DNA of 64,000 nt from Atriophallophorus winterbourni (taxonomy: Eukaryota; Platyhelminthes; Trematoda; Plagiorchiida; Microphallidae), in contig JACCGJ010011267.1 in the NCBI GenBank assembly GCA_013407085.1, forward strand, positions 1-64,000. Direction: 5' to 3'. Under the pieces are notes generated by a model, which saw only the letters and a program-made list of their open reading frames with translations, was not told the DNA's origin and did not search any database. Position 1 is the first letter of the stretch; every line of letters begins with the position of its first letter. The translations under genes and the position numbers were made by a program. Shown one piece after another: positions 4,801 to 62,076 of this stretch.

Positions 4801-5437
4801 AAGATGAAGTGAAGTTAAGGGTCGATCGTGCTCGTAATGCGTTTTTGCAGTTGAAAGGCACCCTTTGGCGCAAGCCCGGGATCAGCCTAAAAACTAAGAC
4901 GCGTGTTTATCAAGCAGCGATCCGCCCTGTACTGCTTTATGGATGCGAGACATGGCCTTTAAGGTCACAGGATGTACGCACATTAGAAGTGTTCGACCAT
5001 TGGTGCCTAGGGTAATCTTGGGCATCCGATATACTGACCGAGTATCTAACGCAGCCGTACGAGAGCGTTGCAGCGGACTATCTCCACTTTCCGCTCACAT
5101 ACAACGGCGAAGGCTGCAATGGTTTGGCCACGTCCTCCGAAAGACAGACACAGCACTTCCAAAACTCGTCCTCGACCCCAAACCCGTTCGCACCTGGCGT
5201 CGGCGGCAAGGTGGTCAAGTGAAAACCTGGCTGTCAACTGTGAAAGAGGATGTAGACACCCTGGGTCTGCGTACCGTCTACGGAGTTCGCAGGTGGGAAC
5301 GAGACTGGATCACGATCTGCAACGATCTCGCCTCCGATCGACGTGCGTCGCTGGTACGATCTGAGACATCAATGAAGCCGGCTAATCCACCCGTGGAGCC
5401 AGCCGCACAAAAGAAAAAGAAGAAAGAAGAAGAAGAT
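1844..5437 (+). mobile_element. Full-length RTE-clade LINE inserted in CR1 ORF1
   Basis: About 3.6 kb: a GC-richer 480-bp 5' leader (start GTGTCACAGCCGGGGG), one long endonuclease-reverse transcriptase frame, a very short 3' region ending CAGCCGCACAAAA, and an A/G-rich tail of AAG/AAAG repeats typical of RTE ends. The uninterrupted CR1 copy reads CTACACCCC-GTACC at 20155-20169, which fixes the junctions to within a few bases (TCCC/CCCC overlap on the right). The leader occurs alone at 34.2, 52.4 and 59.9 kb. Confidence 0.9.
2332..5398 (+). pseudogene. RTE endonuclease-reverse transcriptase, frameshifted
   Basis: The open part (2332-4812, 826 codons) has an apurinic-type endonuclease at residues ~40-300: NVRTL, SEVSLPG, YAPT, GDWNART, QIDYVLI, TDHTLV. 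The reverse transcriptase is at ~510-790: GFRPGMGCVDQIF, FIDFRAAFDSV, GVRQGCPLSP and the catalytic LDYADDIVVL. It would nick target DNA and prime cDNA synthesis there. The frame breaks in a T run near 4683-4691, because the expected FKYLGSS block continues in another frame. It breaks again near 5010, after FDHWCL. The C-terminal part (WFGHVLRK; TWLSTVKEDVDTLGL) then runs to about 5398. With so few lesions this looks recently active. Start chosen at the first ATG after the conserved leader. Confidence 0.88.
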
Positions 5438-8510: not shown

Positions 8511-9571
8511 AGCGAGAGTGGCATAGTAACGAGGTTTTGTAAAAACGGCTTTATTTTCTCAAGTCCATCATTTATTTGCTCAATCGATCAGTACAAAGCT
8601 CTCAGAAATCGTCGGCTGACGCATCTTCTTTCGTCGGATCTCGTTCATCTCGTTGTCTAGCCGATCACACGCTTGCATCAGTCTCGTCCAGGTTGAAGAC
8701 TTCATCCGCAGAGAACTGCCTGAGTAAGGGCCGGAGAACCTGCTGCTGCCGATCAATAAGGGATTGGGAATCCACCGCTCCAGCTTCGCCCTGCACTGTC
8801 TTGAACGTGACGCCATTGCGCTTCTTGAAGCTGTCTAACTAACTCGCCATGAAGTCTGGGATGTGCATCAGCTCAGCCAGTTTTATCGCCTTCTCCTTGA
8901 TCAGATCGCCGCTGAAAGGCAGATTCAGTCCTCTTGCTTGCTTCAGCCACATCAGCACTCCCTCCTCAAAACTTAGGTCGTGAGGCTGCGTCAGCTTCAA
9001 GTGCTTCGATGGAACTCCAGCTTCGATTGCAGCTTCAATTGCATCCTTCTTGCTGAGAATGCACTTCACGGTGGTTCTTTTAACTTCGACGCCCCATTTC
9101 TTGCTAATCTCCCTCGCCAACTTGGACTGATTCGGCTCCTTCTTCGCAGCATCGATGATCTCGAACTTCTCCTTCAGCGTAAAGTCGGTTCGCTTGCGTT
9201 TTTGAGCTGACATTATGGGCTGAATAGTTTGAAAAATAACGATGTCACTGTTGTGAGTGTCTGTTTGTACGCGCGCTTTCGTGGGTCTATCTATTGATAC
9301 TTAAAGCAAGAGTAGGAAAGAGGCTTGTCGTTGTGCGTGAGGTGATTGGCTTGTTGTAGCTGGCGTCAGGGAGAAAGATCGCGTGTTTGACCTCGAAACC
9401 GGCTGACTATATGCGTAAAATGCGCAAAAATGCACTTTTAAATAGTCACAGAATAATGGCATAGTAACGAGAGTAGGGAGTGGCATAGTAAATTAATTTT
9501 GTATTGAATTTTGTCGGGACCTAGCAAAAGTGGCATAGTACCGAGAGTGGCATAGTACCGAGATTTGAGTG
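8511..9571 (-). mobile_element. Tigger/pogo-type element, copy 1 (left end clipped)
   Basis: Same family as 16177-17307 and 17324-18460. The right end has the inverted terminal sequence ending GATTTGAGTG followed by TATATA. Repeats of GTGGCATAGTA lie just inside. The left terminus is lost into TA repeat. Its frame (9213-8839, minus) encodes the CENP-B-like N-terminal helix-turn-helix (FTLKEKFEIIDAAKK; LAREISKKWGVEV), then stops at about residue 124 because roughly ten bases present in the other copies are missing near 8842. Confidence 0.85.
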
Positions 9572-9840: not shown

Positions 9841-10125
9841 TGCGGGAGATGTGAGCAACACATTACTTTGGTCATCCTTAAGCGTCTTGAGTGCTTGACC
9901 AAGAATCACTTTGTGATTCTGTGTTTGAACATCGTGGTTCGTTGTGCGAACCCTATGTAACAGTGGCATCCAAGTCTAACTTTGTTTACCACTTATGCAC
10001 TGTTTCAAGGCTCACTTAACCTAATCTTACCATCTCCATCTGATGATGCAAACATCCAGAAACCGGTAGTGATGTGTAAGTGCGGGTGATGTGAGCAACA
10101 CATTACTTTGGTCATACTCAGTGGT
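9841..10125 (+). repeat. Hammerhead repeat family B, monomer (copy A)
   Basis: About one unit of the 241-bp repeat seen at 60.4-61.0 kb. Shared marks are the palindrome-like AATCACTTTGTGATT, GAACATCGTGGTTCGTTGTG, AACAGTGGCATCCAAG and ACTGTTTCAAGGCTCACTTA. The unit ends in the hammerhead core and then begins a second, truncated unit. Confidence 0.8.
10034..10074 (+). ncRNA. Hammerhead ribozyme, family B, degenerate
   Basis: Core CTGATGA at 10040-10046, GAAA at 10059-10062, stem III palindrome ACCGGT, and a GTA cleavage triplet ending at 10068. Stem I pairs only partly and stem II is weak, so cleavage is doubtful. Copy B holds the equivalent at 24114-24154. Confidence 0.6.
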
Positions 10126-17323: not shown

Positions 17324-18460
17324 CACTCAAATCTCAGTACTATGCCACCCGTTGGGACTGAGCAAGAGTGGCATAGTAGCGAGAGTGGCATAGTAACGAG
17401 GTTTTGTAAAAACGGCTTCATTTTCTCAAGTCCATCATCTATTTGCTCAATTGATCAGTCCAAAGCTCTCAGAAATCTTTGGCTGACGCATCTTTTTTCG
17501 TCGGATCTCGTTCATCTCGTTGTCTAGCCGATAACACGCTTGCATCAGTCTCGTCCAGGTTGAAGACTTCATCCGCAGAGAACTGCCTGAGTAAGGGTCG
17601 GAGAACCTGCTGCTGCCGATCAATAAGGGATTGGGAATCCACCGCTCTAGCTTCGCCTTGCACTGTCTTGAACGTGACGCCATTGCGATTCTTGAAGCTG
17701 TCTAACCAACCGTCGCTCGCCATAAAGTCTGGGATGTGCATCAGCTCGGCCAGTTTTATCGCCTTCTTCATAATCAGATCGCCGCTGACAGGCAGATTCA
17801 GTCCTCTTGCTTGCTTCAGCCACATCGGCACTCCCTCCTCAAACTTTAGGTCGTGAGGCTGCGTCAGCTTCAAGCGCTTCGATGGAACTCCAGCTTTGAT
17901 TGCAGCTTCAATTGCATCCTTCTTGCTGAGAATGCACTTCACGGTGGTTCTCTTAACTTCGACGCCCCATTTCTTGCTAATCTCCCTCGCCAACTTGGAC
18001 TGATTCGGCTCCTTCTTCGCAGCATCGATGATCTCGAACTTCTCCTTCAGCGTAAAGTCGGTTCGCTTGCGTTTTTGAGCTGACATTATGGGCTGAATAG
18101 TTTGAAAAATAACGATGTCACTGTTGTGAGTGTCTGTTTGTACGCGCGCTTTCGTGGGTCTATCTATTGATACTTAAGGCAAGAGTAGGAAAGAGGCTTG
18201 TCGTTGTGCGTGAGGTGATTGGCTTGTTGTAGCTGGCGTCAGGGAGAAAGATCGCGTGTTTGACCTCGAAACCGGCTGACTATATGCGTAAAATGCGCAA
18301 AAATGCACTTTTAAATAGTCACAGAATAGTGGCATAGTAACGAGAGTAGGGAGTGGCATAGTAAATTTATTTTGTATTGAATTTTGTTGGGACCGAGCAA
18401 AAGTGGCATAGTAGCGAGAGTGGCATAGTAACGAGATGGCATAGTACCGAGATTTGAGTG
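17324..18460 (-). mobile_element. Tigger/pogo-type element, copy 3 (intact frame)
   Basis: 1137 bp with ~24-bp inverted ends differing at one position (CACTCAAATCTC[A/G]GTACTATGCC) and TA target duplications. It sits 16 bp of TA repeat from copy 2. It carries the only uninterrupted frame of the three copies. Confidence 0.9.
17469..18086 (-). CDS. Truncated Tigger-type transposase, DNA-binding part only
   Basis: 205 residues. Residues ~1-60 are a CENP-B/psq helix-turn-helix (KRKRTDFTLKEKFEIID; SKLAREISKKWGVEV). About 70-140 is the second CENP-B-type HTH (VPMWLKQARGLNLPVSGDLI; FMASDGWLDSFKNRNGVTF). At ~175 comes VFNLDETDA, the segment with the first catalytic Asp (YNADETG in the family). The protein then ends in a charged tail ASAKDF, so the remaining catalytic residues are absent. 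It could bind the GTGGCATAGT sites but not transpose. All three copies share this deletion, so a full-length relative must have moved them. Confidence 0.82.
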   Translation of the reverse strand: MSAQKRKRTDFTLKEKFEIIDAAKKEPNQSKLAREISKKWGVEVKRTTVKCILSKKDAIEAAIKAGVPSKRLKLTQPHDLKFEEGVPMWLKQARGLNLPVSGDLIMKKAIKLAELMHIPDFMASDGWLDSFKNRNGVTFKTVQGEARAVDSQSLIDRQQQVLRPLLRQFSADEVFNLDETDASVLSARQRDERDPTKKDASAKDF

Positions 18461-23900: not shown

Positions 23901-24205
23901 CGTATCAAATTCGTACTCAGTGCGATGGGTGTGAGCAACACATTACTTTGGTCATCCTTAAGCGCCGTGAGTGCTTGACCAAAAATCACTTTGTGATTCT
24001 GTGTTTGAACATCGTGGTTCGTTGTGCGAACCCTATGTAACAGTGGCATCCAAGTCTAACTTTGTTTACCACTTATGCACTGTTTCAAGGCACACTTAAC
24101 CTAATCTTACCATCTCCGTCTGATGACGCAAACAGCCAGAAACCGGTAGTGATGTGTAAGTGCGGGGGATGTGAGCAACACATTACTTTGGTCATACTCA
24201 GTGGT
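23901..24205 (+). repeat. Hammerhead repeat family B, monomer (copy B)
   Basis: Counterpart of 9841-10125. The core CTGATGA is at 24120-24126, followed by AGAAACCGGTAGTGATGTG. Stem II (CGC/GCC around AAACA) is imperfect. Confidence 0.75.
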
Positions 24206-34234: not shown

Positions 34235-34970
34235 TCAGGTTCCAAAGGTTGTCATAGCCGGGGGTGGCAGTGGGAATAAGCTCCCACTGTTTATAAAATG
34301 CTCCCATATGGCGCGCGTCTCAAATAGCCTCTGACAACCAAGTCCACCTTCTGGCCTGCACGACCGGCTCCCCGAGCCCGGTGGAACTGCTTCTACCAAC
34401 AGGAGAAGGGGCGAGGGCGAGTGACTGGCGCCTGAAAACCAGTGTGCACTGATGTGCATTCGTACAGTACCTATGTGCTGTACGGCTAACACCGTGCTAA
34501 ATTGATTGTCCAAAGGTAGTGAGCTGCATGCTGAAACACGCTGGAGTCTCACTACCATTTCTATTTTCTTTCTCATATCTGTCTAGGCCTGGGCAACCTG
34601 ATAGTATCTTAGCCCACGTGCAGTCTCTGACTGTGCGGCACTTTGCCTCGATCAGGCTTGTGCTTTCGTATCGTATCATCTAAGGGAATGAAAACCCTGG
34701 TTTTAAACCTCCGCTGTCTTGCGGGATACCCGATCGCGGGAAAGGCTTCGGGAGAAAACCTTGAAACAGAGTCTGGTAGACTGTTAGTTGGTGCACACCA
34801 CCTCTTTCTGGCAACTCCCTGCTGCACTTGGTTGTGCAAAGGCTAGAGAAGCTGACTCGAACAAACGCCGAGTGGTGCTGGGGACGCCGCTTTGTACCCA
34901 AATTCCCAAGAATCTTCATTGAAGCCGACTCATCCTCCAGGAGGAGATAGTCGCACACAAGTCACAAGTC
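34235..34970 (+). mobile_element. RTE-derived short element (leader plus 3' end), copy 1
   Basis: Carries the ~480-bp RTE 5' leader, no coding region, and ends GGAGATAGTCGCACACAAG, resembling the RTE terminus CCGCACAAAAG. It is bounded by 12-bp target duplications with one mismatch: ACATACGCACCA (34223-34234) and ACATACGCATCA (34971-34982). The dispersed ~235-bp repeat sits inside it at about 34445-34681. Confidence 0.82.
34445..34681 (-). repeat. Dispersed ~235-bp repeat
   Basis: Reverse complement starts near GAAAGCACAAGCCTGATC, passes TGCCGCACAGTCAGAGACTG and GTTGCCCAGGCCTAGACAGA, and ends with a TACAGCACATAGGTACTGTA palindrome. Not assignable to a tRNA-derived SINE by eye. Relatives: 35290-35385, 36528-36712, 38062-38152, 39738-39925, 40958-41152, 43128-43365, 46534-46607, 52634-52870. 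Confidence 0.75.
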
Positions 34971-34982
34971 ACATACGCATCA

Positions 34983-35835
34983 AACAGACAGACATATATG
35001 CTCCTACATTCGTACATCCAACGATTGGGTTGTAAGTCATATCGCCTAAATAGAAAAACTATAAGAAAGACTATAAGTAGGGAGCTAGTGAAGAATATAG
35101 TACCTAAAAGTATCCCTTCAAAGATGACATGATATATCGTCTTGTGAAATGGGATTTATTTCTTTGAGAGATGAAAATATAATAGAGGTCAACTATAGAA
35201 TTGAGCACAATCTTGAAATGATGAACAGAGAAAGAATATGATAAGCACATGGAATGTTCCAAAGGATAAAGTTATTATATTAGCATTAGATCGCAAGCTT
35301 GGATCCAGGCAAGTGCCGCGCAGCCATAGACTGCACGAGTTCCAACATACTGTCAGATTGCACAAACCTAGACTAGTATAGCGGAAATTGGCGTAATTCC
35401 GAATAAAACTTATTAGCAGTGATAATTTAATATCGTGTAGTGTTGCCTATTTAGTACAGAACTACTGTACCATTGCACGTCCATGACGAAAAACCAATCG
35501 CGATAATTTGGGAAATCGGACACCAACAGTATTCGCAAGCTTTGCTGACGATGTCATCTAGCTTGGCAAAACGCCCAACAACAACTACTACGACACAAGC
35601 TCGGCGAACACCGTCCGAATAACGGTATTCGCACAATTTAAGCTCTTTTTGGGCGAGTGGCTAGTGATTACCGGCTATGCGAAATTCCATGCTCGATCAA
35701 CTTGAAAGTGGAGATGGGCAGATAATCGTCCACACAAAACTACGACTTTGCTTGATCCTAAACACGATCCTTTGTGCCAAACACCGAGGAACAAGATTTT
35801 CGTATTTCTTATCATTCCGTTGTGGGAAAACAAAG
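34983..35835. other. No gene; degraded dispersed repeat inside
   Basis: About 35290-35385 is a worn copy of the ~235-bp repeat (GCAAGTGCCGCGCAGCCATAG). Nothing else recognised. Confidence 0.4.
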
Positions 35836-36199
35836 TTAAGGCAGAATATCAACATAACAAATGCGCGCACTATTTACCGAGTAATCCTTTAACACTTCCG
35901 GAATCTCATCATCATCATCGTCATCGATATCCGACTTGTCTTCGTCTGATGGCGTTCGCATGCTGGACCTTGTATAAACCCGAAGGACAGAAGACGAGCC
36001 GTTACGTGAAGCTGGCCCACTTGTGATTTCATCGAATTTCTGATAATGTGCGCGAGGAGGATTAAGTTTCCCATTGCAAGGGGATTGAGTTCGCGTGGTA
36101 AGTGAGCCGTCCATGGGAGAGTGAGTTGCTTTGGAACGCTGACTGCTATCTAACACGGCAGAGACACCGGAAGGGGATTTCAGACCGGACGAAGGGATA
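35836..36199 (-). other. Candidate terminal exon, possibly of CEP43
   Basis: After the acceptor GGTATGTTGTTCAG the frame stays open for about 120 residues to TAA. It is rich in Ser and Pro (SSGLKSPSGVSAVLDSSQ) and then acidic: SDEDKSDIDDDDDDEIPEV. Such an acidic stretch occurs near the C-terminus of FOP proteins, and the strand matches the gene at 46155-42803. The phases do not join directly (phase 1 leaving 42803, phase 2 needed here), so at least one exon would be missing between them. Confidence 0.4.
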
Positions 36200-36527
36200 C
36201 TGAACAACATACCAGACACCAAAATGTGATTATAAATATCCGAAGTCTCGATGGGTGATACAAAAGCGAACAAGGATACGCTAAATTTTCAAACGTGTCA
36301 ATACAACCCAGACCATACGCCCACATATGTCACAAGAAATGCATCAGCATGATAACAGAACAGAGAAACAAAATGCAGGTAGGTAAATGCGTCGCTAATG
36401 TGTGACCGACGCACACGGAAGTCACAATTTGAGATTGACCGAAGGACGTAAGGTGAGGGCGCGAATTAATCGATAATACGATTGAACCAAAGAGTGGATG
36501 GATAACAGAACACTTATGATAGTATGG

Positions 36528-36712
36528 AATGAAAGCACAAGCCTGATTCAAGCAAAGTGCCGCACAATCAGAGATTGCACATGGGATAAGATACTGTCAG
36601 GTTGCCCAGGCCTAGACAGATACGAGAAAAGAAACAGAAATGGTAGTGAGACTCCAGCGTGTTTCAGCATGCAGCTTACTACCGGTGGCCAATCAAAAAC
36701 ACTTAACTAGCA
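36528..36712 (+). repeat. Dispersed ~235-bp repeat
   Basis: Same family as 34445-34681: GAAAGCACAAGCCTGATTCA, GTTGCCCAGGCCTAGACAGA, GGTAGTGAGACTCCAGCGTG. Confidence 0.8.
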
Positions 36713-37179
36713 AATGAGAAAAATATTTAAAAAATCAAGAGCAAACTATCCCGTTTTTAATCTTATCACAGAAAACCATCGAAACAATCCATTCACTGCG
36801 GAAATCTGCAAATCTTTCCTAGATGAGAAAAATAATGGAAGGTAATAAAAAACCGAGCAAACTAAACACTGCAAATAACCAAATCCAGTAGCCAGAAGGA
36901 TAGGCACGCACAGACATGCAATCTGTAAACCGTTAATAAGTCACATGACCAGAGACAGCTTGTGAATCGACCGAGTCGGAAATTCTCGGTGAATGAAACG
37001 TAGTCTTTCACCTGGTTCACAATCAAGCACAGACGTTAGAAATGCCAACGTTAAGTGAAACCGATGGAATTCAACAAATGCATTTGACAAGTCGGCGAAA
37101 ACTAAGAGTCATGTGATTAGCACTAATAACAGCAGTATAAGTTGTATGTCAAACGATAGGACGAAAAACGAGAAGAGGG
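36713..37179. other. No recognisable feature
   Basis: A-rich sequence without a supported gene or repeat. Confidence 0.4.
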
Positions 37180-37345
37180 TTCACACATTCTGAACCTGTA
37201 AGCCACTGTTGGGTAAGGCTGCACAACTAACTTGACTCTGTGTTTGAAACAAAACCCATATTTGCAGGCATTTTCATCACAAACGCCCTACTATCGGTTC
37301 CGTGCTGTTTCAACTCGTCAATAATTGCAAGCATTGATCAACGGT
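37180..37345 (-). repeat. Hammerhead family A relic
   Basis: GCCACTGTTGGGTAAGGCTG, TTGCAGGCATTTTCATCACA and CGGTTCCGTGCTGTTTCAAC match the family A unit at 41.2 kb, but the core is mutated (ACTCGTCAATA instead of ACTCATCAGG). Confidence 0.6.
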
Positions 37346-38061: not shown

Positions 38062-38152
38062 TTCGGATGTCTGTCTATGTCTGGGTGACCTGACAGTATT
38101 GTGGCCCAAGTACAGCATTTATTGTGCGACACTGCCTGCATCAGTTTTGTGT
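38062..38152 (-). repeat. Dispersed ~235-bp repeat, partial
   Basis: GTCTGTCTATGTCTGGGTGA and CTGACAGTATTGTGGCCCAA match the family in reverse orientation. Confidence 0.6.
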
Positions 38153-38510
38153 GATTTTATACATTTCACTTATAGTCAGCTTTGTGAAGAAATTAATTTA
38201 ATTACTGAAAATTCGCGTATAGTATATATAGTAGAAAGGTAAAATAAATGAAGAACAACGAGAAGGACTTACGCATCGAAATCGTCCTGGTATTCTAGCA
38301 CAGACAATCGGGAATGCGCGAATAACGGCCGTTCACGTGCAAGGTTAAAGTGTGAAAACAAGCGAAATGCGTGAGGTGAACGAGATATATTATAATATAA
38401 TATGCACTAAGCAATAATAGCAGAATCGAGATACCCTTTAGGGATTGATTTGGAATGTGCGATAGATCTATTTTCCGCGTGGCGAGCAGTATTATGACGT
38501 GAGATTGCAT

Positions 38511-39569: not shown

Positions 39570-39715
39570 AACATTGAAGCTACTGTTGGATAACGCTAGC
39601 ACAATAAACCTGTTCAATTCCGTGTGCACATACACACAAATGCGGAATAAATTCGTATTTATGTGAATTTCCATCATACACACATACCTCGTGACCGGTT
39701 TTGTGGTGTTTGAAC
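39570..39715 (-). repeat. Hammerhead family A relic
   Basis: AAACCTGTTCAATTCCGTGT, then GTGACCGGTTTTGTGGTGTT corresponds to the ribozyme region of family A, but the CTGATGA box is lost (GAACATATG). Confidence 0.6.
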
Positions 39716-39737
39716 ATATGACATTTTTTCGCTCATA

Positions 39738-39925
39738 TGAATGTATGAAATCACAAGCCTGATCCGAATTGCTCCAGTCATAGACTACACGTGATCTAAG
39801 ATACTATCAGGTTGTCCAGGCCTAGGAAGATGCGAGAAAGGGAAATTGACAGTGAGACTCCAGCCTGTTTCCGTATGCAGCTCAACAGCGGTGTCATATC
39901 AATATAACACAATGTCAGCTGCGCA
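39738..39925 (+). repeat. Dispersed ~235-bp repeat
   Basis: ATCACAAGCCTGATCCGAAT and GTTGTCCAGGCCTAGGAAGA, then GTGAGACTCCAGCCTGTTTC. Confidence 0.7.
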
Positions 39926-40379
39926 ATACACAAGTACTGCACGATTGCACATCCATGAATACTATATTTCTCATACCAACCTTCTTTTAATGTGTGCTTT
40001 ACTGCTTTTACTATTCCATGTTGTTTGGCCCTTTGTCTGGCTCTGGGGTTTCAGGATGATGATGATTGGAACAACTACAAAGTCAGGCAAAAAAGCAGAT
40101 AGCATAGGGCTCTTTAATTACGAACAACGTATAATCGCGTTCGATTTGTTGTCCAAAAGGGTAATCGCATCCGAGAGATGCATATTCCGGATGCTCAGTT
40201 GTAAAAACCTGGCGTGCAGACGAATATCTGCTTCCCCTATTGAAATCGTGGCGAAGCGTACTAGAATGCCACAAGTACTTCTTCGATGTTAGCTTACAAT
40301 TGAAGCGGTTTACTATTCACTTTATCCTTTCATACTTTGTATTTTCCAAACGCGTTTTGATTTTCACTTAGTCAGCAGA

Positions 40380-40925
40380 CTCATCATCATCATCAAAGAC
40401 AGCAATACACCGGTAGCACGTACCGAATGCTTAACTGCCATACAACCATGAGAAAGTAAAATCCTAAAAGATGGGGAAGGGTGGGACTTAAATTGCTACG
40501 GCTTCTATAGAAGAGTAAGCACAAACAAACTGGGAAGAGGTGCCTACACCTCGAATGAAACATGCATTCAAACAAGTTTCGTGAACGAGTAGAATAACAT
40601 CAGCACGGCACCTTCCTTGCGGCTTACCACCCCCCCCCCAACCCAATGTCATGATCATAACAAGATTTCTAGTCACTCCGCTTGACAACATACAAGTATT
40701 GCAAACACTTTCAAAGAAACAGCTTAGTGCAAGACCGCCATTGAACACGGTTTCGGGACATATCCTTAAGCGTAACTAACCATTGCGATATATGATCGCG
40801 GGGACACCAGCCTGGAAGACGCGCTGCGCCTACTTTGGAAAGGTTACTAGTAAGAATTTTTAGCTGCCTATGCCATGTGACGGTTTGGCCACCCCGAGAT
40901 TTACGCCAATCAGGATGTGGCGTCG
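40380..40925 (-). mobile_element. RTE-type LINE 3' end (family 2), 5'-truncated
   Basis: Minus strand: TPHPDWRKSRGGQTVTWHRQ, SKVGAARLPGWCPRDHISQW, NRVQWRSCTK, then the family 2 3'-UTR and a terminal (ATG)n tract at 40380-40393. Nearly identical to 55130-55640. Confidence 0.85.
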
Positions 40926-40957
40926 CAGACTCGACCTTTATAGATAAACGAGTAATG

Positions 40958-41152
40958 CATTGTGCTAAATTGATTGGCCAACGGAAGTGAGCTGCATGCT
41001 GAAACACGCTAGAGTCTCACTACCATTTCTATTTCCCCCCTCATATCTGTCTAGGCCTGGGCAACCTGACAGTATCTTAGCCTACGTGCAGTCTGTGACT
41101 GTGCGGCACTTTGCCTGGATCAGGCTTGCGCTTTCATACTATACCATATAAT
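40958..41152 (-). repeat. Dispersed ~235-bp repeat
   Basis: Reverse orientation: GTGCTAAATTGATTGGCCAA, TCTGTCTAGGCCTGGGCAAC, GCACTTTGCCTGGATCAGGC. Confidence 0.8.
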
Positions 41153-41282
41153 GCATCTACAACACGATACCATACAGCATTCTTTGATTCATATGACATC
41201 ACTGAACCACCCGGACCAACCACGCTTTATTCAAAAAGGTTTGAACAAGAATCCTCATTTGCATGCATTTCCATCACACACA

Positions 41283-41324
41283 CCCCACGACCGGTTTCGT
41301 GCTGTTTGCACTCATCAGGTAGGA
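41283..41324 (-). ncRNA. Hammerhead ribozyme A1, well formed
   Basis: On the minus strand: stem I TCCTAC, core CTGATGA (41318-41312), stem II GTGC/GCAC with loop AAACA, GAAA (41298-41295), palindromic ACCGGT stem III, then GTC with cleavage expected between 41289 and 41288. The product strand GTGGGG pairs with CCTAC (one U-G wobble). Every invariant catalytic-core base is present. Stem I is the open end, so this is type I. Confidence 0.85.
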
Positions 41325-41520
41325 ACAGTACGATCAGGATCCGCATGCGCTTGAAACAGTGGAAGAATGGTAAACAGGTTGCGCTTGTATGCCACTGTTG
41401 GAATAAGGCTGGTACGACCAACCTGTTCAATCACATGAGACCCCGCTCATGTAGACTGGGTTTAAAACCCATGACCATAAATATAAACCACATTTGCATG
41501 CATCACCATCACACAAAACA

Positions 41521-41562
41521 CCCCACGACCGGTTTCGTGCTGTTTGCACTCATCAGGTAGGA
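41521..41562 (-). ncRNA. Hammerhead ribozyme A2, identical to A1
   Basis: Same 41 bases as A1. Core CTGATGA at 41556-41550, GAAA at 41536-41533, cleavage expected between 41527 and 41526. Cleavage at A1 and A2 of one transcript would release a 238-nt monomer. Confidence 0.85.
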
Positions 41563-42396
41563 ACAGTACGATCAGGATCCGCATGTACTTTAAACAGTGA
41601 GGAATGGTAAAGAAGTTGCGCTTGTACGCCACTGTTGGATAAGGCTGACATGGCCAGCCTGCTTGCAAATGAGGAGTTTTTGTTCAAGCCCGTGGATTTA
41701 AACAATCATGCGCGTGAGCATAGGTAAATGAACACGTTAGTTGTGCCAGCGTTATCTAACATTGGCTTACAAGCTCAACTTGATGAAAAAGCTTAATCGA
41801 TTTCCCGTATACCATAGTGAATTTTTCAAGCTTGTAGCACCATATAATCACGCCGCCGGCGTGCCACTGACGCAATACAACCGAGTTCCGATTACCGTTG
41901 CCATCGCTACGGGAGAGATTGTTTCTCCCGAGTCGGACTGTTTAGTCATTCAAAAAGCTGTAGAACATGAACATTCATGGTCGACATCGATCGAAGGAGG
42001 CCAACAACAACCACCAGATATTACAAAATCTGTACAACAGGGCTACATAACAAGTTCACGTTGCTTGGACAGCGGCATCAACGCTGGCTACACCATGTCT
42101 ACAGAATATGAAGCGGTGGTACTCCAAAAGTTTTACACCATGAAGATTTAAAATCAAGAATTCGTTTTCCGGGTGGACGAAATCTGTAGTACAAAGTCGA
42201 TTACAAAAATTATGAAATTTGTCAACGCTGAACAAATCTATAACAAGAACCACCGCTTGTTCCTTACTTTGGGCGTATAGTATAAAAACGTCAGTTTAAA
42301 GTAAAGGAATAGCGAATGTTGTGGTTAGTGCTCTATGAAGATCACGACGATACATAATAAAACTAGGTCAATTGACAGAGTATTGCAACTCGCAGT

Positions 42397-42628
42397 ACTT
42401 TACTACTTTACTTTTACTTTTGTGCGGCTGGCTCCACGGGTGGATTAGCCGGCTTCATTGATGTCTCGGATCGCACCAGCCCACGCACGTCGATCGGAAG
42501 CGAGATCGTTGCAGATCGTGATCCAGTCTCGTTCCCACCAGCAAACTCCGTAGACGGTACGCAGACCCATTGAGACATCATCATGAAGTTTCTTGGGGGT
42601 AGTGTACAAGTGATGTCCCCAGCACCAG
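42397..42628 (-). mobile_element. RTE internal-deletion derivative
   Basis: Minus strand: the end of the RTE leader and start codon region (CCCCAAGAAACTTCATGATG, ATGTCTCAA) is fused near 42570 to TGGGTCTGCGTACCGTCTAC. That second part lies about 135 bases from the RTE 3' end. The fragment finishes with CAGCCGCACAAAAG and an (AAAGT)n tail. It is truncated at its 5' end. Confidence 0.82.
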
Positions 42629-42802
42629 TATATTTTAGGTGACTGTTGCCACCAAAAACGGATATTGAAAATCACGCAAATCATGTGGTATATGAAACCA
42701 CTACACCCAGAAGTTGTACATTGAGAGTTGGAAGCAAACAGACAAGCAGGCTAGTAGCAATCACAAGTAACAACTGGAGAAATTATTTTTTAGAGAACAC
42801 AC

Positions 42803-45800
42803 CTGGATTCGACGAAAATGGTCTGGGATCTGGACTCGGGATATCCAATTGGGAATGCGGGTCCTCTAGCGGATGTATATCGCGACGTGAGTGGGGAGCG
42901 CGATCGTATTCATTGGTTTTAGTAGAGGGTGGACTAGACATTGCTTTTGAGGTCTTGCATGAGGGACTTTTATCCGGTGTCGTCGAAAGAGAATCACCGG
43001 AAGGCTCGATGGCTCCATTGATTTTATTTTTTTCGTCCGATTCCGAATGTTTTGCTGTATGATTACTGTAAGCGAAGATGCCACATTAGATGCGCACGAT
43101 TAGTATTGTTGACTAGTGATAATATGTACGGTACGAAAGCACAAGCCTGATCAAGGCAAAGTGCCGCACAGTCAAGGACTGCACGTGGGCTAAGATACTG
43201 TCAGGTTGCCCAGGCCTAGACAGATATGAGGGGGGAATTGAAATGGTAGTGAGACTCCAGCGTGTATTCGCATGCAGCTCACTAACGTTGGCCAATCAAT
43301 TTATCACGATGTTAGCCACACAGCACAGAAATGCTGTAGTGCAGTGCAGTGATAATATGTGAATGTATGTCGTCCTACAGGGCCGCTAAATGTCATATTA
43401 GGCACAACCAGGTTTAGGGATCGACCTCGCAATCTCACATGGCGCGTGTCTTAGCGCTGATATAAGCGACTCACATACGTTTCAATTCAAATGGCATTTT
43501 TGTTATCGAAAGAGGCAGCAATTGATTAATATGGGTATCAGTGTGCACCCTGTACAAAACTGACGAATGTCGACGCATACATGTGAGGAACGAAGTAGTC
43601 TATGAACCAAAACCGATAAGCTGATGACAGAGAGAACCAAATTAGATCAATCCAGCTATTGCTTCATGGGATATTCATATTGAAGTGAACGGAGACAGTG
43701 AAACATGTTGCATCTTATCATGTCATCAAGGCAGGTCAAACGCTCCCAGAGCGGCAAAGGCAACAATTGAACCAAATGGCCGAAAATCGTAAGATGGTGA
43801 TGAAAGTCAAGATTTTTGCCAGCTGGCATAATCTTAACGGCATGCGCATGCAAATCCCGATCCTACGGCCCATACCGGATGATGCAAATAGCACGAAACC
43901 GGTCGTGGGATGTGTGCGATGGAAATACATGCAAATCAGCATTTTGGTTCATGGTTATAGGTTTAACCCCATTATACACGTGTTTGGACACACGTGATTG
44001 AACAGGTTGGTCGTATCAGGCTTATCTAACAGTGGCAGACAAGCGTAACTTGTTTACCATTCTTTTACTGTTTCAAGCGCATGCTGATCCTGATCCTAGT
44101 GTCCCTACCTGATGAGTGCAAACAGCACGAAACCGGTCGTGGAGTGTGTGTGTGATGGAAATACATGCAAATCAGCATTTTGGTTCATGGTTATAGGTTT
44201 AACCCCATTATACACGTGTTTGGACACACGTGATTGAACAGGTTGGTCGTATCAGGCTTATTTAACAGTGGCAGACAAGCGCAACTTGTTTACCATTCTT
44301 TTACTGTTTCAAGCGCATGCTGATCCTGATCCTACTGTCCCTACCTGATGAGTACAAACATCACGAACCAGGCCGTGGGGTGTGTGCGTGATGGAAATGC
44401 ATGTAAATGAGCATTTTCGTTCGGGGTCATGGGTTTAAACCCAGTATACATGAGTGTGTGCTCATGTGATTGAACAGGGTGGTCGTATCAGGCTTATTCA
44501 ACAGTGGCATACAAGCGCAACTTGGTTACCATTCTTCCACTGTTTCAAGCGCATGCGGATCCTGATTTTACTTTCCTTACATGATGAGTGCAAACAGCAC
44601 AAAACCGGTCGCGGGGTGTGCCGGAAATGCATGCAATTAAGCATTTTTATTAACCAAAGATGCTTGGATAACAAACAAGAAGTCGGCCGATAATCGGGAA
44701 CGGGTGTGCGTGATGCGATATGTAAAAACGGTTCTGATAAAAATAGTCTGTTTGTCATTCAACTCAACGTAATAGCATTTCTGGCAAGTCGTTAACTTAT
44801 CCCCCTTTAAAATATGATCTAGAATCATGGCATTGGCAAAGGCTCTTTATTCACTGTCGATGAGACAGCAGAGACCGCACCAAAACACCGAGACTAGAAT
44901 ATTTTTGCACTTACCACGCTCAAGAGTTATTGATGGTTGTATATGGAAGCAAAAACTCAAGATGTACATCCCACATACAAGCTATTCATTTTAATACTAC
45001 CTTAAATAACCCCGTGCTCTGACACATGAAGAATACACTTACTCTAACGCCCAAAACAGGGCACTGTCTCAGGTGGGCCAACACTGTTTATTATGTATTC
45101 AACATGATTTATATTTAATGGGTGAAAAGAACGCGATCGAAGCTTAAATCGCCATCGACCGAGATCTGGTTAAGAAAAGGTGATTAAAACATGGAGCACA
45201 GATAAATACATACATTGGCAACCGTAGCTTCATTATCTGAAATAACACTTAGCATGACATGCTGAACATGAAAGCCAATCGAGGCAGGATAGATGCTACA
45301 TATATTCGGGACCGATTAATTTATAAAAGTCGCATGCAACAAGAACCGCAATCATGCATAAACTACGTGCAATTTCTATAGCAGAAAGCTACCTTGAACA
45401 ACCTGTTCTTCTTGTCATACGGACAGGAATTCTACTGAAAGTATTAGGCAATGAAATGCATACCAATTAGCTCCGACATATTGAAACATGAGAGAATAAG
45501 ATTACGAAATGCTTACCTTGTTGAATCACGGCTTTCATGAACAACTGTAAAAATTGAAAAGCGTCATTGTGAAAAGCAAATGCCATAGGAGTAAGCAATC
45601 AGTTAGTTGATTTAAAGCAATTCAATACTAAGCACTTACCCGTTGGAACCGTTTTCTTTGATGACATATAAGAGTCCCAAAGAGATGCCAACACTGATGT
45701 GTTTGAGTTAGATTCTAGAGCCAAATGTGACTGAAGATCATCCGCAGTCATTAGTGGAATGTTGTTCTTTATGATTGCTCAGAAGAAAAATGTACCTTAC

Positions 45801-46155
45801 CAAACTGGCCTCATGCGTGAAAACCTCTAAGGTATTAGTTAAACGAGTGTGTCTCAGAAACTCCGCAACAAGGGAGAAGATGAAAAGACCTTTCTAATAA
45901 ATGTGGGAAAACAAACGAAGATCACCTACCATCAGGGCTACTAAGTATCGCCTTTAAGGCATTATTCGCGGGTGGCATAGTTTCGTGATAGTTATGCTTT
46001 TCGAGAGCTAGAAACACTGCGGCTCTCAGTTGAGCCTGAGAGAAAATGGGAGAAAAGTCGAACGTTACCTGTAGACGCGATAGAATACCATTTGCACTCA
46101 ACGACTGGATTAGCATGTCTTTCAAGTCGGTTTCACTGCTGCTAAGCTCTGACAT
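42803..46155 (-). CDS. CEP43: CEP43/FGFR1OP-like centrosomal LisH protein, seven 5' exons
   Basis: Exons (minus): 46155-46069, 46035-45930, 45889-45801, 45766-45640, 45544-45517, 45434-45393, 43065-42803. All introns are GT-AG and phases agree throughout. The protein starts MSELSSSETDLKDMLIQSLS, then LRAAVFLALEKHNYHE and, from exon 3, FSLVAEFLRHTRLTNTLEVF, the LisH dimerisation region of FOP (human LRAAVFLALE, SLVAEFL). Exon 6 gives SRIPVRMTRR, like the SKIPRYK segment of FOP. Exon 7 is Ser/Pro-rich. FOP anchors at centrosomes and centriolar satellites and aids ciliogenesis. Introns 1-3 are 33, 40 and 34 nt, intron 4 is 95 nt and exon 5 is 28 nt. The 33-nt intron has no stop, so retention would stay in frame. 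Exon 7 ends in phase 1, so more exons follow to the left. The related FOR20/CEP20 is a poorer match. Confidence 0.85.
43128..43365 (+). repeat. Dispersed ~235-bp repeat
   Basis: GAAAGCACAAGCCTGATCAA, GTTGCCCAGGCCTAGACAGA and GGCCAATCAATTTATCACGA, ending near a GCACAGAAATGCTGTAGTGC hairpin. Lies in CEP43 intron 6. Confidence 0.8.
43820..44640 (+). repeat. Hammerhead family A tandem array (about 3.5 units)
   Basis: Ribozyme blocks recur at 43891, 44125, 44361 and 44597, spacings 234, 236 and 236. Shared unit text includes GGTTCATGGTTATAGGTTTA, TGATTGAACAGGTTGGTCGT and ACTGTTTCAAGCGCATGCTG. It lies in CEP43 intron 6 on the opposite strand to that gene. Confidence 0.88.
44104..44143 (+). ncRNA. 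Hammerhead ribozyme A3, nearly complete
   Basis: CTGATGA at 44109-44115, stem II GTGC/GCAC around AAACA, GAAA at 44129-44132, ACCGGT, and a GTC site ending at 44138. Stem I CTAC pairs with GTGG, but the next position is C against A. The other three blocks of this array have core mutations: CGGATGA at 43877, GAAC for GAAA near 44365, and ATGATGA with CAAAA near 44580-44602. Confidence 0.78.
44641..45392. other. CEP43 intron 6, unassigned part
   Basis: No exon or repeat recognised. Exons 6 and 7 join in phase, so no extra exon is required here. Confidence 0.4.
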
Positions 46156-46533: not shown

Positions 46534-46607
46534 ATGAAAGCACAAGCCTGATCCAGGCAAAGTGCCGCACAGTCAGAGACTGCACGTGGGCTAAGATACT
46601 GTCAGGT
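46534..46607 (+). repeat. Dispersed ~235-bp repeat, 5' third
   Basis: GAAAGCACAAGCCTGATCCA through CTAAGATACTGTCAGGT, then truncated. Confidence 0.8.
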
Positions 46608-47280: not shown

Positions 47281-49420
47281 CCCTTTCATGCCTGAATTAT
47301 TTTCTAACCCGAAATAAAATATTTTTTCTTCGGAAACGAGTTGCCCAGGGGTGAAATAACACAAATAATATAACAATTTTGTGATATTCACATAATTGAG
47401 AAAATAACAAAATGTAACCAATTGGTTACATCCGGCAGAAGTCATCAATTTTCAGGTGTCATTTCCTTATGGCACTGCATTGTACTTTTGTGTGATAGCC
47501 TCTATAACATGTTTTGTCGTAGGTCAGACACAGCTACATCGCATTTCTGACACCTCACTTTAGTCAATCCTTTTACACAGTGCTTGCATCTCTACCGGGT
47601 TTTCGAGATGAGCGGAAAATATCAAACGTTGTCGAAACGGGTTGAATTCACTGGGCAAGTGATTTTCCTCATCTTCTGTGCGGGTTGCTGCATGTCTGTT
47701 GTAGACCTTGGCCTTCCTCTTGGAGTTACGGGCGGAGTCATTAGAGCGATTGCTATGTCTTCTTTGAAGTCAGAGAGACACATTCATGTTAAACTCATGA
47801 AATCACAGGTCCTTCGGTATAACAACCAAGTATTTACCACACTCAGATCTAACAGATAGAAAAAAATCCTCATGTACCATTTCTTCGACTTTAAATCGGT
47901 ACGATAAAGTTCGATCAACATATTGCACAAATCGACTCCCCCATGAATTTGTTATATTCTTTTACAACGAAAGATCTACCAACTTCTACATATGACTTCT
48001 GTTTTCGATCCCATCTCATCACTGTATCAGCCGGTTCTATTTCCGCATATGAAGAAAGTAGGTGAATTGGTTTGTTGTCAAACCACTTCACAGCTATTAT
48101 ATTACTATTGATTTCAACTCTAAAGTCGTAACTTCCTCTCCCATCTTTTTGTAGCAGTTTATCATTCTTCAGTATACATCTTTTCAGCCTGTTCACCCTG
48201 ACGGTAGACACATTGAGAATACCAGATTCCTGTAGCTTCCTTGATAAGCCCAATGAAGAGAACCAGTTATCATAAAATAACTTGTAGTTCTTGTGCTTGG
48301 GTATACCTTCAGCAAGCCGAAGTGCGTAGGTTGATGACACTCCAACTTCGACATCTTCCTTCTTCCGATCCTTTCCCGTATAAATCTCGAAGTCATAAAT
48401 AAGGCCACCCGATCCTGCTCTAGATATGACTCTATACCCCCATTTGTGTGGCTTTCTTAGATTGTATTTTTTATGGAGATATGCGCTTTCGTAGGAATAA
48501 TGTCTTCATCCACGGCTTGATGTTCTTCTTGTGGAAGTTTCTGACAGTTCGATTTGATGGAATCCATAATTGGTCGAATTTTGAATAGTTTGTCATCTTT
48601 GTTGCCATCTTCCTTCTGCGAAATGTTATCATTAAAGTGAAGATAGCGCTTTATCTCTTCATATCTGTCTCGACTCATATTACTCGAAACTGCTTTGAGG
48701 CTTAAGCCTTTTTTCCAGTAAGTTCGATAACTAGGAACTTTGTTTATACCAGTTAGGAGTGTGATCCCCACGAAAGTTCTCATATCCGTATTGTCAATTC
48801 GCAACTATTTCCCAGCGGTCTGCATTGCATAAATTTTGGTTTGGTAAACCATTGTCTCGAATGCCGAATTGTCGAACATCAACTCAAAAAAGGAAATCGG
48901 TAAGGAGATCTGGGTCGTGGGCGTATGAGTAAGCGTCCGCAGTTAACGATCGTGCGATCTGCCATAGAAACAATGAGCGCTACACGGTCGTGAGACAGTT
49001 CCAACAGGCCTCTACGATTTTGGTGACTTTTGCCGGATGTAACATAAAGGTTACATCTATTTAAACGCAACGCATTTCGAAGATTTTCTGATTTATTCCA
49101 ATTTTTTTACATAATGTCTTTGTAGGCATGACTAAGTTTATCCTGGAACAAAATTTATAATAGCTGAGACTTTCACACGATTTTTATTCGGCTCACAAAA
49201 CTGCGAATTGTGAGGATACGTTCGAAACCCGTACCAGCACATACTTTCTCTTTCACTGTGGACAAGTCAATGATGATTGCGAACAGAGAAGAAAACCACC
49301 CTGCAGTTAACAAGATTCTGTATGCGGCCGTGCAAAAAAATTCGGAAAATTCAGTTAGAATTAGCTTAAAATGACTTGCGAAGTTCATGTAACCAAAAGG
49401 TTACATCCGTCCTGAAAGGG
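47281..49420 (-). mobile_element. piggyBac-type transposon with broken transposase
   Basis: 2140 bp with ends CCCTTTCATGCC and GTCCTGAAAGGG, flanked on both sides by TTAT (47277-47280, 49421-49424), a variant of the usual TTAA. Minus strand, in several frames: AVDEDIIPTK (first catalytic Asp region), RKPHKWGYRVISRAGSGG, IYDFEIYTGK, KLFYDNWFSSLGLSRKL (second Asp), and after a G-run slip near 47940 VDLCNMLIELYRTD (third). The C-terminal zinc finger CKHCVKGLTKVRCQKCDVAV is near 47540-47600. At least two frameshifts or stops. Palindromic ATGTAACC-N4-GGTTACAT motifs lie near both ends. Confidence 0.88.
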
Positions 49421-51930: not shown

Positions 51931-53141
51931 AAACCGTTTGACAGGTAGACAGTAGTAGCTTGTTTTTCGTTACCCGCACCGCTGTATGCGACATGTACGA
52001 AGAACCAGTTTACCATGCGCGATGGAGTAATTTTTATATCAGACAAGAACGCTGAAGTGAAAGCGACCTCCGCTCCGTTAATAACTGGTTTCTCAACAGT
52101 TCATGACAATCAAGTCAAATTACGAACATAATAGAGTCCAAGCATCGTGAATCAAAATGACAAGGCAGTGTAGCAAGTAGAAGCGATGGCTCTCGGGGTG
52201 TGGAAATCTGGAGAAGGATACAGATCATAATTAGGATTTAGGAGTCAATATAAATCGAGTGCTTTCAGATGGCTGAGTGACAGCGATAGCAGCCAAGTTG
52301 AAATGAAACAAACTAAATGGGAGGAAGTAAAGGAAAATATTGAGAAAAGTGAAAAAAGATGTCACTCTTGACTTTATCAAACCCGGCTCTGTTGAAATGT
52401 CAGAGAACGGTACATACGCACCATCAGGTTTCAAAGGTTGTCATAGCCGGGGGTGGCAGTGCGGATAAGCTCCCACTGTTTATAAAATGCTCCCATATGG
52501 CGCGCGTCTCAAATAGCCTCTGACAACCAAGTCCACCTTCTGGCCTGCACGACCGGCTCCCCGAGCCCGGTGGAACTGTTTCTACCAACAGGAGAAAGGG
52601 CGAGGGCGAGTGACTGGCACCTGAAAACCAATGTGCACGGATGTGCATTCGTACAGTACCTATGTGCTGTACGGCTAACATCGTGCTAAATTGATTGGCC
52701 AAAGTTAGTGAGCTGCATGCTGAAACACGCTGGAGTCTCACTACCATTTCTATTTTCTTTCTCATATCTGTCTAGGCATGGGCAACCTGACAGTATCTTA
52801 GCCCACGTGCAGTATCTGACTGTGCGACACTTTGCCTCGATCAGGCTTGTGCTTTCGTATCGTATCATCTAAGGGAAGGAAAACCCTTATTTTAAACCTC
52901 CGCTGTCTTGCGGGATACCCGATCGCGGGAAAGGCTTCGGGAGAAAACCCTGAGGAAAAACCTGAAACAGAGTCTGTTAGACCACCTCTTTCTGGCAACT
53001 CCCTGCTGCCTTGCAGGTCGCACTTGGTTGTGCAAACGCTAGAGAAGCTGACTCGAACAAACGCCGAGTGGTGCTGGTGACGCCGCTTTGTACCCAAATT
53101 CCCAAGAATCTTCTTTGAAGCCGACTCATCCTCCAGGAGGA
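51925..53141. repeat. 1.4-kb duplicated block, second copy (includes truncated RTE-derived short element)
   Basis: Repeats 33736-34942 at an offset of 18189 with few differences. From 52424 it carries the RTE leader element and, at the same internal point (52634-52870), the dispersed ~235-bp repeat. It breaks off at TCCTCCAGGAGG, where a LINE begins. Confidence 0.85.
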
Positions 53142-58930: not shown

Positions 58931-59819
<889 letters not shown>

Positions 59820-60392: not shown

Positions 60393-60640
60393 AATTACAC
60401 TCCACTACCGGTTTCTGGCTGTTGGCCGTCATCAGGTGGAGACAGTGCGATGAGGTTCAGTGAGCGTTGAAACCGAGAATAAATGGTAAACAAGTGTATA
60501 CTTGAATGCCACTGTTACATAGGGTTCGTACAACGAACCACGATGTTCAAACACAGAATTCCATAGTGATTCGTGGTCAAGCACTCAAGGCGCTTATGAA
60601 TGACCAAAGTGATATCTTGCTCACATTCCCCGAAATTACG
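60393..60640 (-). repeat. Hammerhead family B unit, minus orientation
   Basis: One 241-bp period, between AATTACACTCCACTACCGG at 60393 and AATTACGCTCCACTACCGG at 60634. Contains AGCGTTGAAACC, AATGCCACTGTTACATAGGG, and AATTCCATAGTGATTCGTGG. Confidence 0.88.
60400..60441 (-). ncRNA. Hammerhead ribozyme B1
   Basis: Minus strand: stem I CTCCAC (60441-60436), CTGATGA (60435-60429), stem II GGC/GCC around CAACA with a C-A mismatch at its base, GAAA (60415-60412), ACCGGT stem III, and GTA cleavage between 60406 and 60405. GTGGAG then pairs perfectly with stem I (six pairs). The stem II closing mismatch is the only defect seen. Confidence 0.75.
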
Positions 60641-60986
60641 CTCCACTACCGGTTTCTGGCCACGAATCACTATGTGATTCTGTGTTTGAACATCGTGGTT
60701 CGTTGTAAGAACCCTACGCAACAGTGGCATTCAAGTATACACTTGTTTACCATTTATCCACTGTTTCAAGGCTCACTGAACCTAATCTTACTGTATCCAC
60801 CTGATGACGGCCAACAACCAGAAACCGGTAGTGGAGTGTAATTTCGGGGGATGTTAGCAACACATCGCTTTGGTCATGCATAAGCGCCTTGAGTGCTTGA
60901 CCAGGAATCACAATGTGATTCTGTGTTTGAACATCTGGGTTCGTTGTACGAACCCTGTGCAACAGTGGCATTCAAGTATACACGTG
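60641..60986 (+). repeat. Hammerhead family B units, plus orientation
   Basis: At about 60662 the array inverts: from CCACGAATCACTATGTGATT onward the family B unit reads on the plus strand. One complete period (CACTATGTGATT at 60667 to CACAATGTGATT at 60908, 241 bp) and a second truncated by the next (TTA)n tract. Confidence 0.88.
60795..60836 (+). ncRNA. Hammerhead ribozyme B2
   Basis: Stem I TCCAC, CTGATGA at 60801-60807, CGGCC AACAA CCA stem II region (weaker than B1), GAAA at 60821-60824, ACCGGT, and a GTA site ending at 60830. GTGGA pairs with TCCAC. Confidence 0.7.

Positions 60987-61061
<75 letters not shown>

Positions 61062-61599: not shown

Positions 61600-62076
<477 letters not shown>

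Follow-up and report, generated by a model that had tools for sequence, protein, structure and literature searches.

Hammerhead ribozyme motifs of a probable retrozyme-like tandem repeat in intron 7 of a fluke CEP43 gene

CEP43 gene model and position of the arrays

The window, i.e., the whole 64-kb stretch of Atriophallophorus winterbourni DNA analysed here, carries a CEP43 gene on its minus strand, and two introns of this gene hold tandem arrays of units with hammerhead motifs (Table 1). A local search with the human CEP43 protein located minus-strand exons at 46146-45925 and 45890-45789 (E 3.8e-11). The protein search returned six proteins, namely P0049, those of Fasciola hepatica, Paragonimus kellicotti and Calicophoron daubneyi (best identities 58%, 36%, and 54%, respectively) and two kangaroo rat CEP43 isoforms, and with P0049 and the three fluke proteins the exons could be traced down to 32659. 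By these identities, the gene probably belongs to a digenean fluke other than the three species named. The spliced model has 10 exons and 1203 nt including the stop codon, which means 400 aa without any internal stop, and its introns are GT/AG with consistent splice phases. Three of four related proteins align to it over most of the length at 36-40% identity, and the fourth aligns in two pieces. The peptide of the micro-exon 8 is largely conserved in the four related proteins, and the first three introns are just 33-40 bp long.

A sequence-only reading had placed two identical hammerheads in sense orientation beyond exon 7, and expected them in the pre-mRNA provided that the gene continues to the left. 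Exons 8, 9, and 10 were indeed found to the left of the motifs, so both motifs lie inside intron 7 (42802-38295) of the 10-exon model and on its coding strand. Intron 7 thus holds the minus-strand array in the sense direction, and intron 6 (45392-43066) holds a sister array on the plus strand, antisense to the gene.

Table 1 Coordinates of the CEP43 exons, hammerhead motifs, and repeats in the window
Feature	Position	Strand	Evidence
CEP43 exons 1-6, start codon at 46155, introns 33-95 bp	45393..46155	-	protein alignments, open frame
CEP43 exon 7, 263 nt, between the two inverted arrays	42803..43065	-	splice phase, open frame
CEP43 exon 8, 22-nt micro-exon (EYQDDFD), ends intron 7	38273..38294	-	protein comparison, spliced model
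CEP43 exon 9	35878..36199	-	protein comparison, spliced model
CEP43 exon 10, with stop codon	32659..32775	-	protein comparison, spliced model
Tandem array in sense in intron 7, roughly 1.8 units (236-238 bp each)	41242..41661	-	local alignment to plus-array unit; nhmmer
Type I hammerhead motif, the copy lying downstream in the CEP43 transcript	41283..41324	-	Rfam Hammerhead_1 29.0 bits; core read directly
Type I hammerhead motif, upstream copy, identical	41521..41562	-	Rfam Hammerhead_1 29.0 bits; letter identity
Predicted unit RNA of 238 nt, bounded by the cleavage sites	41289..41526	-	positions of the two GUC sites; release predicted
Partial, diverged unit, head-to-head with the sense array	41660..41784	+	nhmmer E 1.8e-16; local alignment 69%
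Sister tandem array, 236-bp units, intron 6, antisense to the gene	43841..44651	+	Tandem Repeats Finder; nhmmer matches 43841 to 44651
Intact hammerhead motif in sister array, predicted cleavage after 44138	44103..44144	+	Rfam 34.9 bits
Broken core: CUGAUGA altered, stem II one base short	43875..43908	+	core-site search
Broken core: GAAA to GAAC, GUC to GCC, two stem II mismatches	44345..44378	+	core-site search
Broken core: CUGAUGA begins with A instead of C, G12 replaced by A	44581..44614	+	core-site search
Decayed relative, intron 7, sense	39579..39716	-	nhmmer E 4.9e-16
Decayed relative, intron 8, sense	37178..37321	-	nhmmer E 9.3e-12
Copy of the second, more diverged subfamily: GUA triplet, stem II base with C.A mismatch	60397..60562	-	nhmmer E 1.2e-23; alignment
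Second subfamily, head-to-head with the 60397-60562 copy	60681..60997	+	nhmmer E 1.3e-31
Second subfamily, decayed copy	9919..10111	+	nhmmer E 8.6e-23
Second subfamily, decayed copy	23999..24188	+	nhmmer E 7.9e-23
Copies of the ~200-bp repeat, plus strand	43120-43330, 36522-36696, 39743-39919, 46536-46607, 35294-35373	+	
Copies of the ~200-bp repeat, minus strand	40958-41149, 52663-52864, 34474-34675, 38067-38151	-	

Two type I hammerhead motifs in intron 7

The two 42-nt motifs on the minus strand are identical letter for letter, and their cores start at 41318 and 41556, which gives a spacing of 238 bp. Reading of the strand showed in both of them CUGAUGA, a stem II of GUGC/GCAC, GAAA, GUC, and a pairing stem I, so all the elements named in the sequence-only reading are present. 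With cleavage placed, as is standard, directly behind the C of the GUC triplet, the predicted sites (41289/41288 in the downstream copy and 41527/41526 in the upstream copy) agree with the positions proposed there. The conserved type I core (CUGANGA, GAA, and the NUH triplet after helix III) is intact in both minus-strand copies and in one copy of the sister array (44103-44144). Helix I has at least 5 bp and helix II 4 bp, but helix III is just ACCGGU and can be fully paired only between two copies; the earlier description “apparently complete” is too strong.

When 10,001 bases were searched against 4227 Rfam families, both minus-strand copies matched positions 1-45 of the Hammerhead_1 model (RF00163) with 29.0 bits and E 7.7e-4. 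The curated gathering score of this model is 34 bits, which is a screening threshold and not a structural feature, and the two copies lie under it, whereas the sister copy with 34.9 bits lies above it. For this reason, the minus-strand motifs were missing from the default scan of the 64-kb window with 4227 families, in which the sister copy was the sole match. The sequence-only reading had proposed such a covariance search and had named a score below threshold as evidence against itself; taken literally, this outcome was obtained for its two copies, and the sister copy passed.

A loose pattern, CTGANGA-N8..30-GAAA, was a weak discriminator of such motifs: it matched 12 times where 4.94 matches were expected, and none of 100 shuffles reached this number (the largest gave 11). 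When the 34-nt core was searched with up to 11 mismatches allowed, ten sites were found, and the core was perfect at three of them. These three perfect cores sit in homologous tandem units of 234-238 bp, so the motifs are beyond chance.

Short helix III and probable action as a pair

The ACCGGU of helix III is its own reverse complement. One copy can form at best two pairs over a two-base loop, as in the Rfam drawing, and two copies can form a six-pair helix, so a single motif should be weak and the pair should cleave mainly as a double hammerhead. We compared these possibilities by folding energies, which leave out tertiary contacts. In a transcript of two units, the double hammerhead would cost 3.6 kcal/mol over the free ensemble, one single hammerhead 6.2 or 7.5 kcal/mol, and both singles 10.9 kcal/mol. 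For two 55-nt copies, the double hammerhead was predicted at -32.3 kcal/mol together vs 2 × -14.1 (-28.2) kcal/mol apart. But the active fold was not the best predicted one: in the best joint fold of the two 55-nt copies (-34.1 kcal/mol), stem II and the ACCGGU helix were kept but helix I moved into another register in which core bases are paired, and the double hammerhead was 1.8 kcal/mol less stable than this fold.

Newt and viroid hammerheads with a short helix III are described as far better ribozymes when dimeric (PMC6155905), and a 2011 survey (PMC3088659) points out palindromic helix III sequences among hammerheads of the repeat type and depicts one from a mosquito as a dimer. Because of the fold energies and these published dimers with short or palindromic helix III, the tandem arrangement would likely be part of the mechanism, with a 238-nt RNA as its product, and on the same modelling the two motifs probably work best as a pair.

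Structure of the unit RNA

An unusual overall stability of the 236-238-nt RNA was considered and rejected, as the comparison with shuffled sequences gave z values of only -0.04 and -0.47. Covariation was then analysed in an alignment of nine units, using 34 pairs in 6 helices that had been named from one unit, and 500 shuffles. Over the nine units, 85.1% of the cells at the named pairs can pair vs 80.1% in the shuffles, 12 cells have both sides changed vs 5.2, and the covariation score was 0.203 vs 0.143; for each of these three measures, 0 of 500 shuffles was as high. The other two of the five measures, pairs with both sides changed (45/500) and further pair types (312/500), were not above the shuffles. 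When the partners were slid by 1-3 columns, only 31.8-45.5% of the cells paired, although this control favours a structure that was taken from one of the units. Base changes on both sides occurred at 6 of the 34 named pairs and in 4 of the 6 helices, most clearly in helix 2, where one pair is GC in five units and CG in four, while helix 1 and helix 6 paired poorly (64% and 79% of cells). This analysis gives moderate support to the idea that the RNA, and not the DNA alone, has mattered in the history of the unit; the support is moderate because the unit sequences are related and some are near-duplicates.

Repeat units and the sister array

Tandem Repeats Finder reported the sister array at 43844-44620 on the plus strand with a period of 236, 3.3 copies, and a score of 1176. 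One of its four cores is intact and three are broken, and one of the broken three lacks G12, a base reported as essential (PMC2576457). The unit length is 234-238 bp in both arrays, and the motif stands at the same position of the unit and is intact in three of six units. The GC content of the two arrays is 47.6% and 45.4%. A repeat search of 40000-46000 gave eight direct-repeat families, which are those of the tandem units.

Identity between the plus and minus arrays is 82-85% in the longer aligned pieces and about 83% over 423 bp. The two units of the minus array are 88% identical to each other, and the 82 bp round the motif are 96% identical. When four units were compared block by block, identity was 0.82-0.92 for the motif and 0.67-0.76 where the units diverge most; some further blocks away from the motif nevertheless reached up to 1.0, which means that the contrast between motif and non-motif conservation is weak.

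These figures bear on the question of whether the ribozymes are still alive. It is possible, though we think it rather unlikely, that both arrays are dead remnants of a retrozyme or satellite family, that the ribozymes no longer cleave in the cell, and that the identical motifs were recently duplicated or homogenised; a retrozyme origin would be compatible with this. The window has 12 core-like sites, ten from the mismatch-tolerant search and two besides, of which nine are broken or altered and only 3 intact, the sister array has lost most of its cores, both minus-strand copies stay under the Rfam cut-off, and the high identity round the motif within the minus array is what local homogenisation would give. 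However, the core bases have stayed intact in both copies and in one sister copy although the arrays as a whole have diverged to the extent given above. The higher identity of the motif blocks compared with the most diverged blocks also speaks against dead fragments, but weakly, as other blocks are as high or higher.

The ends of the arrays were also compared. Among 2000 random pairs, 687, 186, and 1607 did as well as or better than the best shared strings that could be target-site duplications, the candidates of 5-6 bp being those with 687 and 186, so no candidate at the arrays rose above random. The two arrays end at near-equal positions of the unit (283 and 285 in the dimer profile), but their start positions differ. 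The shared ends and the head-to-head piece beside the sense array would fit a 5'-truncated, twin-primed insertion, which is a hint and comes from two arrays in which poorly conserved parts of the unit begin near there.

Decayed relatives and a second subfamily

A nhmmer profile of the unit found six further places in the 64-kb window, which are decayed or diverged and of unequal age. Among them is a second, more diverged subfamily of four copies with the triplet GUA; at the foot of stem II, two of these carry a C.A mismatch and two lack one nucleotide. With this triplet and the altered stem II, the second subfamily was set aside as a probably weak ribozyme. The copy at 23999-24188 was probably duplicated along with the copy at 9919-10111. 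The second-subfamily copies within 60397-60997 stand head-to-head, and the minus-strand copy adjoins the apparent 3' tail of an RTE-type element with TTTAC repeats. Relatives of the unit were also looked for in plasmid and phage collections, without any match, and in viral contigs, without an exact or relaxed pattern; these are non-eukaryote collections and the result has little weight.

Inverted arrays around exon 7

The two arrays are inverted round exon 7 of CEP43, with the antisense array of intron 6 transcribed first and the sense array of intron 7 after it. The duplex of the antisense array with the whole 420-nt sense array was predicted at -593 kcal/mol with the self-structure of both partners ignored, and for the 76 nt round one ribozyme the duplex was -140 kcal/mol vs -19.8 kcal/mol for its own fold. 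A second inverted repeat of 192 bp and 90% identity also surrounds exon 7 (40958-41149 and 43120-43330). It is formed by two of the nine copies of a ~200-bp short interspersed repeat in the window, of which the eight others are 74-96% identical to the copy at 43120-43330.

Inverted flanking repeats favour back-splicing. A hairpin of the sense and antisense arrays could switch off the ribozymes of intron 7 and also draw the splice sites of exon 7 close to each other, with back-splicing of this exon into a circle as the result, and ribozyme cleavage would do the opposite; if this were true, the locus would yield either a 238-nt ribozyme RNA or a 263-nt circle of exon 7. We consider this most unlikely, because both kinds of repeat are common in the window and their placement may be due to chance.

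Comparison with known hammerhead systems

Animal retrozymes consist of tandemly repeated units of 150-450 bp that carry type I hammerheads, with 220-240 bp in a coral (Cervera and de la Pena 2020, PMC7229834), and platyhelminths have such hammerhead repeats (PMC7229834). A target-site duplication, when present, is longer than 4 bp in the retrozyme definition that we used, and LTR, primer binding site, and polypurine tract are absent. The fluke repeat is like these non-LTR retrozymes in its tandem units, which measure 234-238 bp and hold a single type I hammerhead each, in its GC content below 50%, and in its arrays of few units and dispersed copies, since two arrays and six decayed or diverged places were found within 64 kb. 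The GC limit is given as below 50% in the text and below 45% in a figure legend of PMC7229834, and both arrays lie under the first and exceed the second. Retrozyme sequences are species-specific (PMC7229834), so a sequence match to published retrozymes is not expected. Helix III of amphibian hammerheads is shorter than in typical invertebrate ones (PMC7229834), and the fluke unit has the short kind. The satellite hammerheads of newt and axolotl are alike in that helix III is too short for a good monomer and that their dimers cleave better, and helix III of the fluke is self-complementary; but the axolotl units are about 330 and 350 nt (PMC7229834) vs 236-238 in the fluke, and the animal group is a different one.

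Hammerheads in introns are a second group for comparison, as both fluke motifs stand in sense orientation within intron 7 of a demonstrable gene. In Schistosoma mansoni, each SmPoMuc gene has one hammerhead between exons 9 and 10, and G12 is kept in one gene group only (PMC2576457), so hammerheads were already known from introns of trematode genes. SmPoMuc/Smalpha and the fluke repeat share a type I hammerhead of a trematode, the intron of a protein gene, and some copies without G12. However, the schistosome element has one motif and Pol III boxes A and B (PMC2576457), whereas fluke CEP43 has two intact tandem motifs and no A box: with strict consensus strings, no A box was found in either array, and one B-box-like string was found at 41246 in the minus array. 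The amniote intronic hammerheads (RECK, CTCL, and DTNB; PMC6155905) are also type I motifs in introns, but theirs are conserved among amniotes, and mammalian ones are isolated motifs (PMC7229834), whereas the fluke CEP43 motifs belong to a tandem repeat.

A role of intronic hammerheads in the host gene has been proposed for S. mansoni SmPoMuc and for amniotes. These published intronic cases (PMC2576457, PMC6155905), and the fact that intron 7 holds two intact copies in sense, could be taken to mean that the fluke pair has likewise been kept because cleavage of intron 7 tunes splicing or transcript level of CEP43. We regard such a domesticated ribozyme as very unlikely, as the sister and decayed copies occur in both orientations and at several places, which fits insertion better than a selected part, and a single insertion has an even chance of landing in sense.

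Penelope-like elements and Terminons have hammerheads with a minimal helix III and in tandem copies as well, and dimeric cleavage has been proposed for them (PMC6155905, PMC7761336). By this resemblance, the arrays could be part of a Penelope-like element (pseudo-LTR), whose hammerheads have little of helix III and are proposed to work as dimers. We consider this improbable: among 16 ORFs of the window scanned with Pfam, there was no GIY-YIG match at E<=1e-3, while four of the 16 matched reverse transcriptase, one of these with a LINE-type endonuclease.

A probable retrozyme-like element in CEP43

From the motif, the tandem units, the family relatives, the position and orientation in the gene, and the base changes on both sides of pairs, we conclude with good confidence that the two motifs are ribozymes of a non-autonomous, non-LTR retrozyme-like tandem repeat, whose 236-238-bp units each bear one type I hammerhead and which is inserted in sense in intron 7 of fluke CEP43, with a sister array in the opposite direction in intron 6. 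The sequence-only reading was right about the motifs and, as shown by the gene model, about their orientation, but it missed the sister array on the plus strand, the decayed relatives, and the tandem repeat of retrozyme kind to which the motifs belong.

Under this retrozyme-like reading, transcription through intron 7 would bring the two tandem hammerheads together by their self-complementary ACCGGU, and the paired hammerheads would cleave at both predicted sites, releasing a 238-nt RNA with a 5'-OH and a 2',3'-cyclic phosphate. A host ligase could circularise the freed RNA, and a reverse transcriptase of the LINE or Penelope type could copy the circle into new tandem insertions; these steps of ligation and copying by a foreign enzyme are taken from the published retrozyme model (PMC7229834). 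An ORF of 826 aa at 2332-4812 on the plus strand encodes a LINE-type endonuclease/reverse transcriptase, with its best relative at 68% and many tapeworm (Sparganum, Spirometra) relatives at 44-55%, and such an ORF is possibly the kind of helper enzyme that the unit would use. For CEP43 itself, the array is most likely a tolerated passenger, which would be spliced out or cleaved inside the intron.

The locus is thus a new example of an already known kind of ribozyme-bearing element, and what is particular is the presence of two intact tandem copies in one intron and of an inverted sister array in the preceding one. A full-text literature search in open-licence papers, judged by titles and the starts of abstracts, gave, among the matches listed, no title naming this locus or a fluke retrozyme. 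With two intact sense ribozymes in one intron and an antisense sister array before them, it offers a defined place for testing the retrozyme cycle in a known host gene, and also a natural case for studying how a self-cleaving intron affects splicing of the gene that carries it. A newt-like, short and self-complementary helix III in an invertebrate can furthermore test if dimer cleavage is an amphibian trait or a trait of short helix III.

Other features of the window

Several features recur about 14 kb apart, namely 9919-10111/23999-24188 and the ORFs 13112-13615/27159-27614, which suggests that the left half of the window contains a segmental duplication. A transposase fragment with a DDE_Tnp_1_7 match, which we take to be piggyBac-like, lies at 47915-48340 on the minus strand, and a Tc5/CENP-B-like transposase fragment lies at 8839-9213 on the same strand with a related ORF at 17469-18086 (minus). 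A TTA microsatellite of about 130 copies occupies 59427-59819. A long open calmodulin-like frame with four EF-hand matches was found at 61600-62022 on the minus strand.
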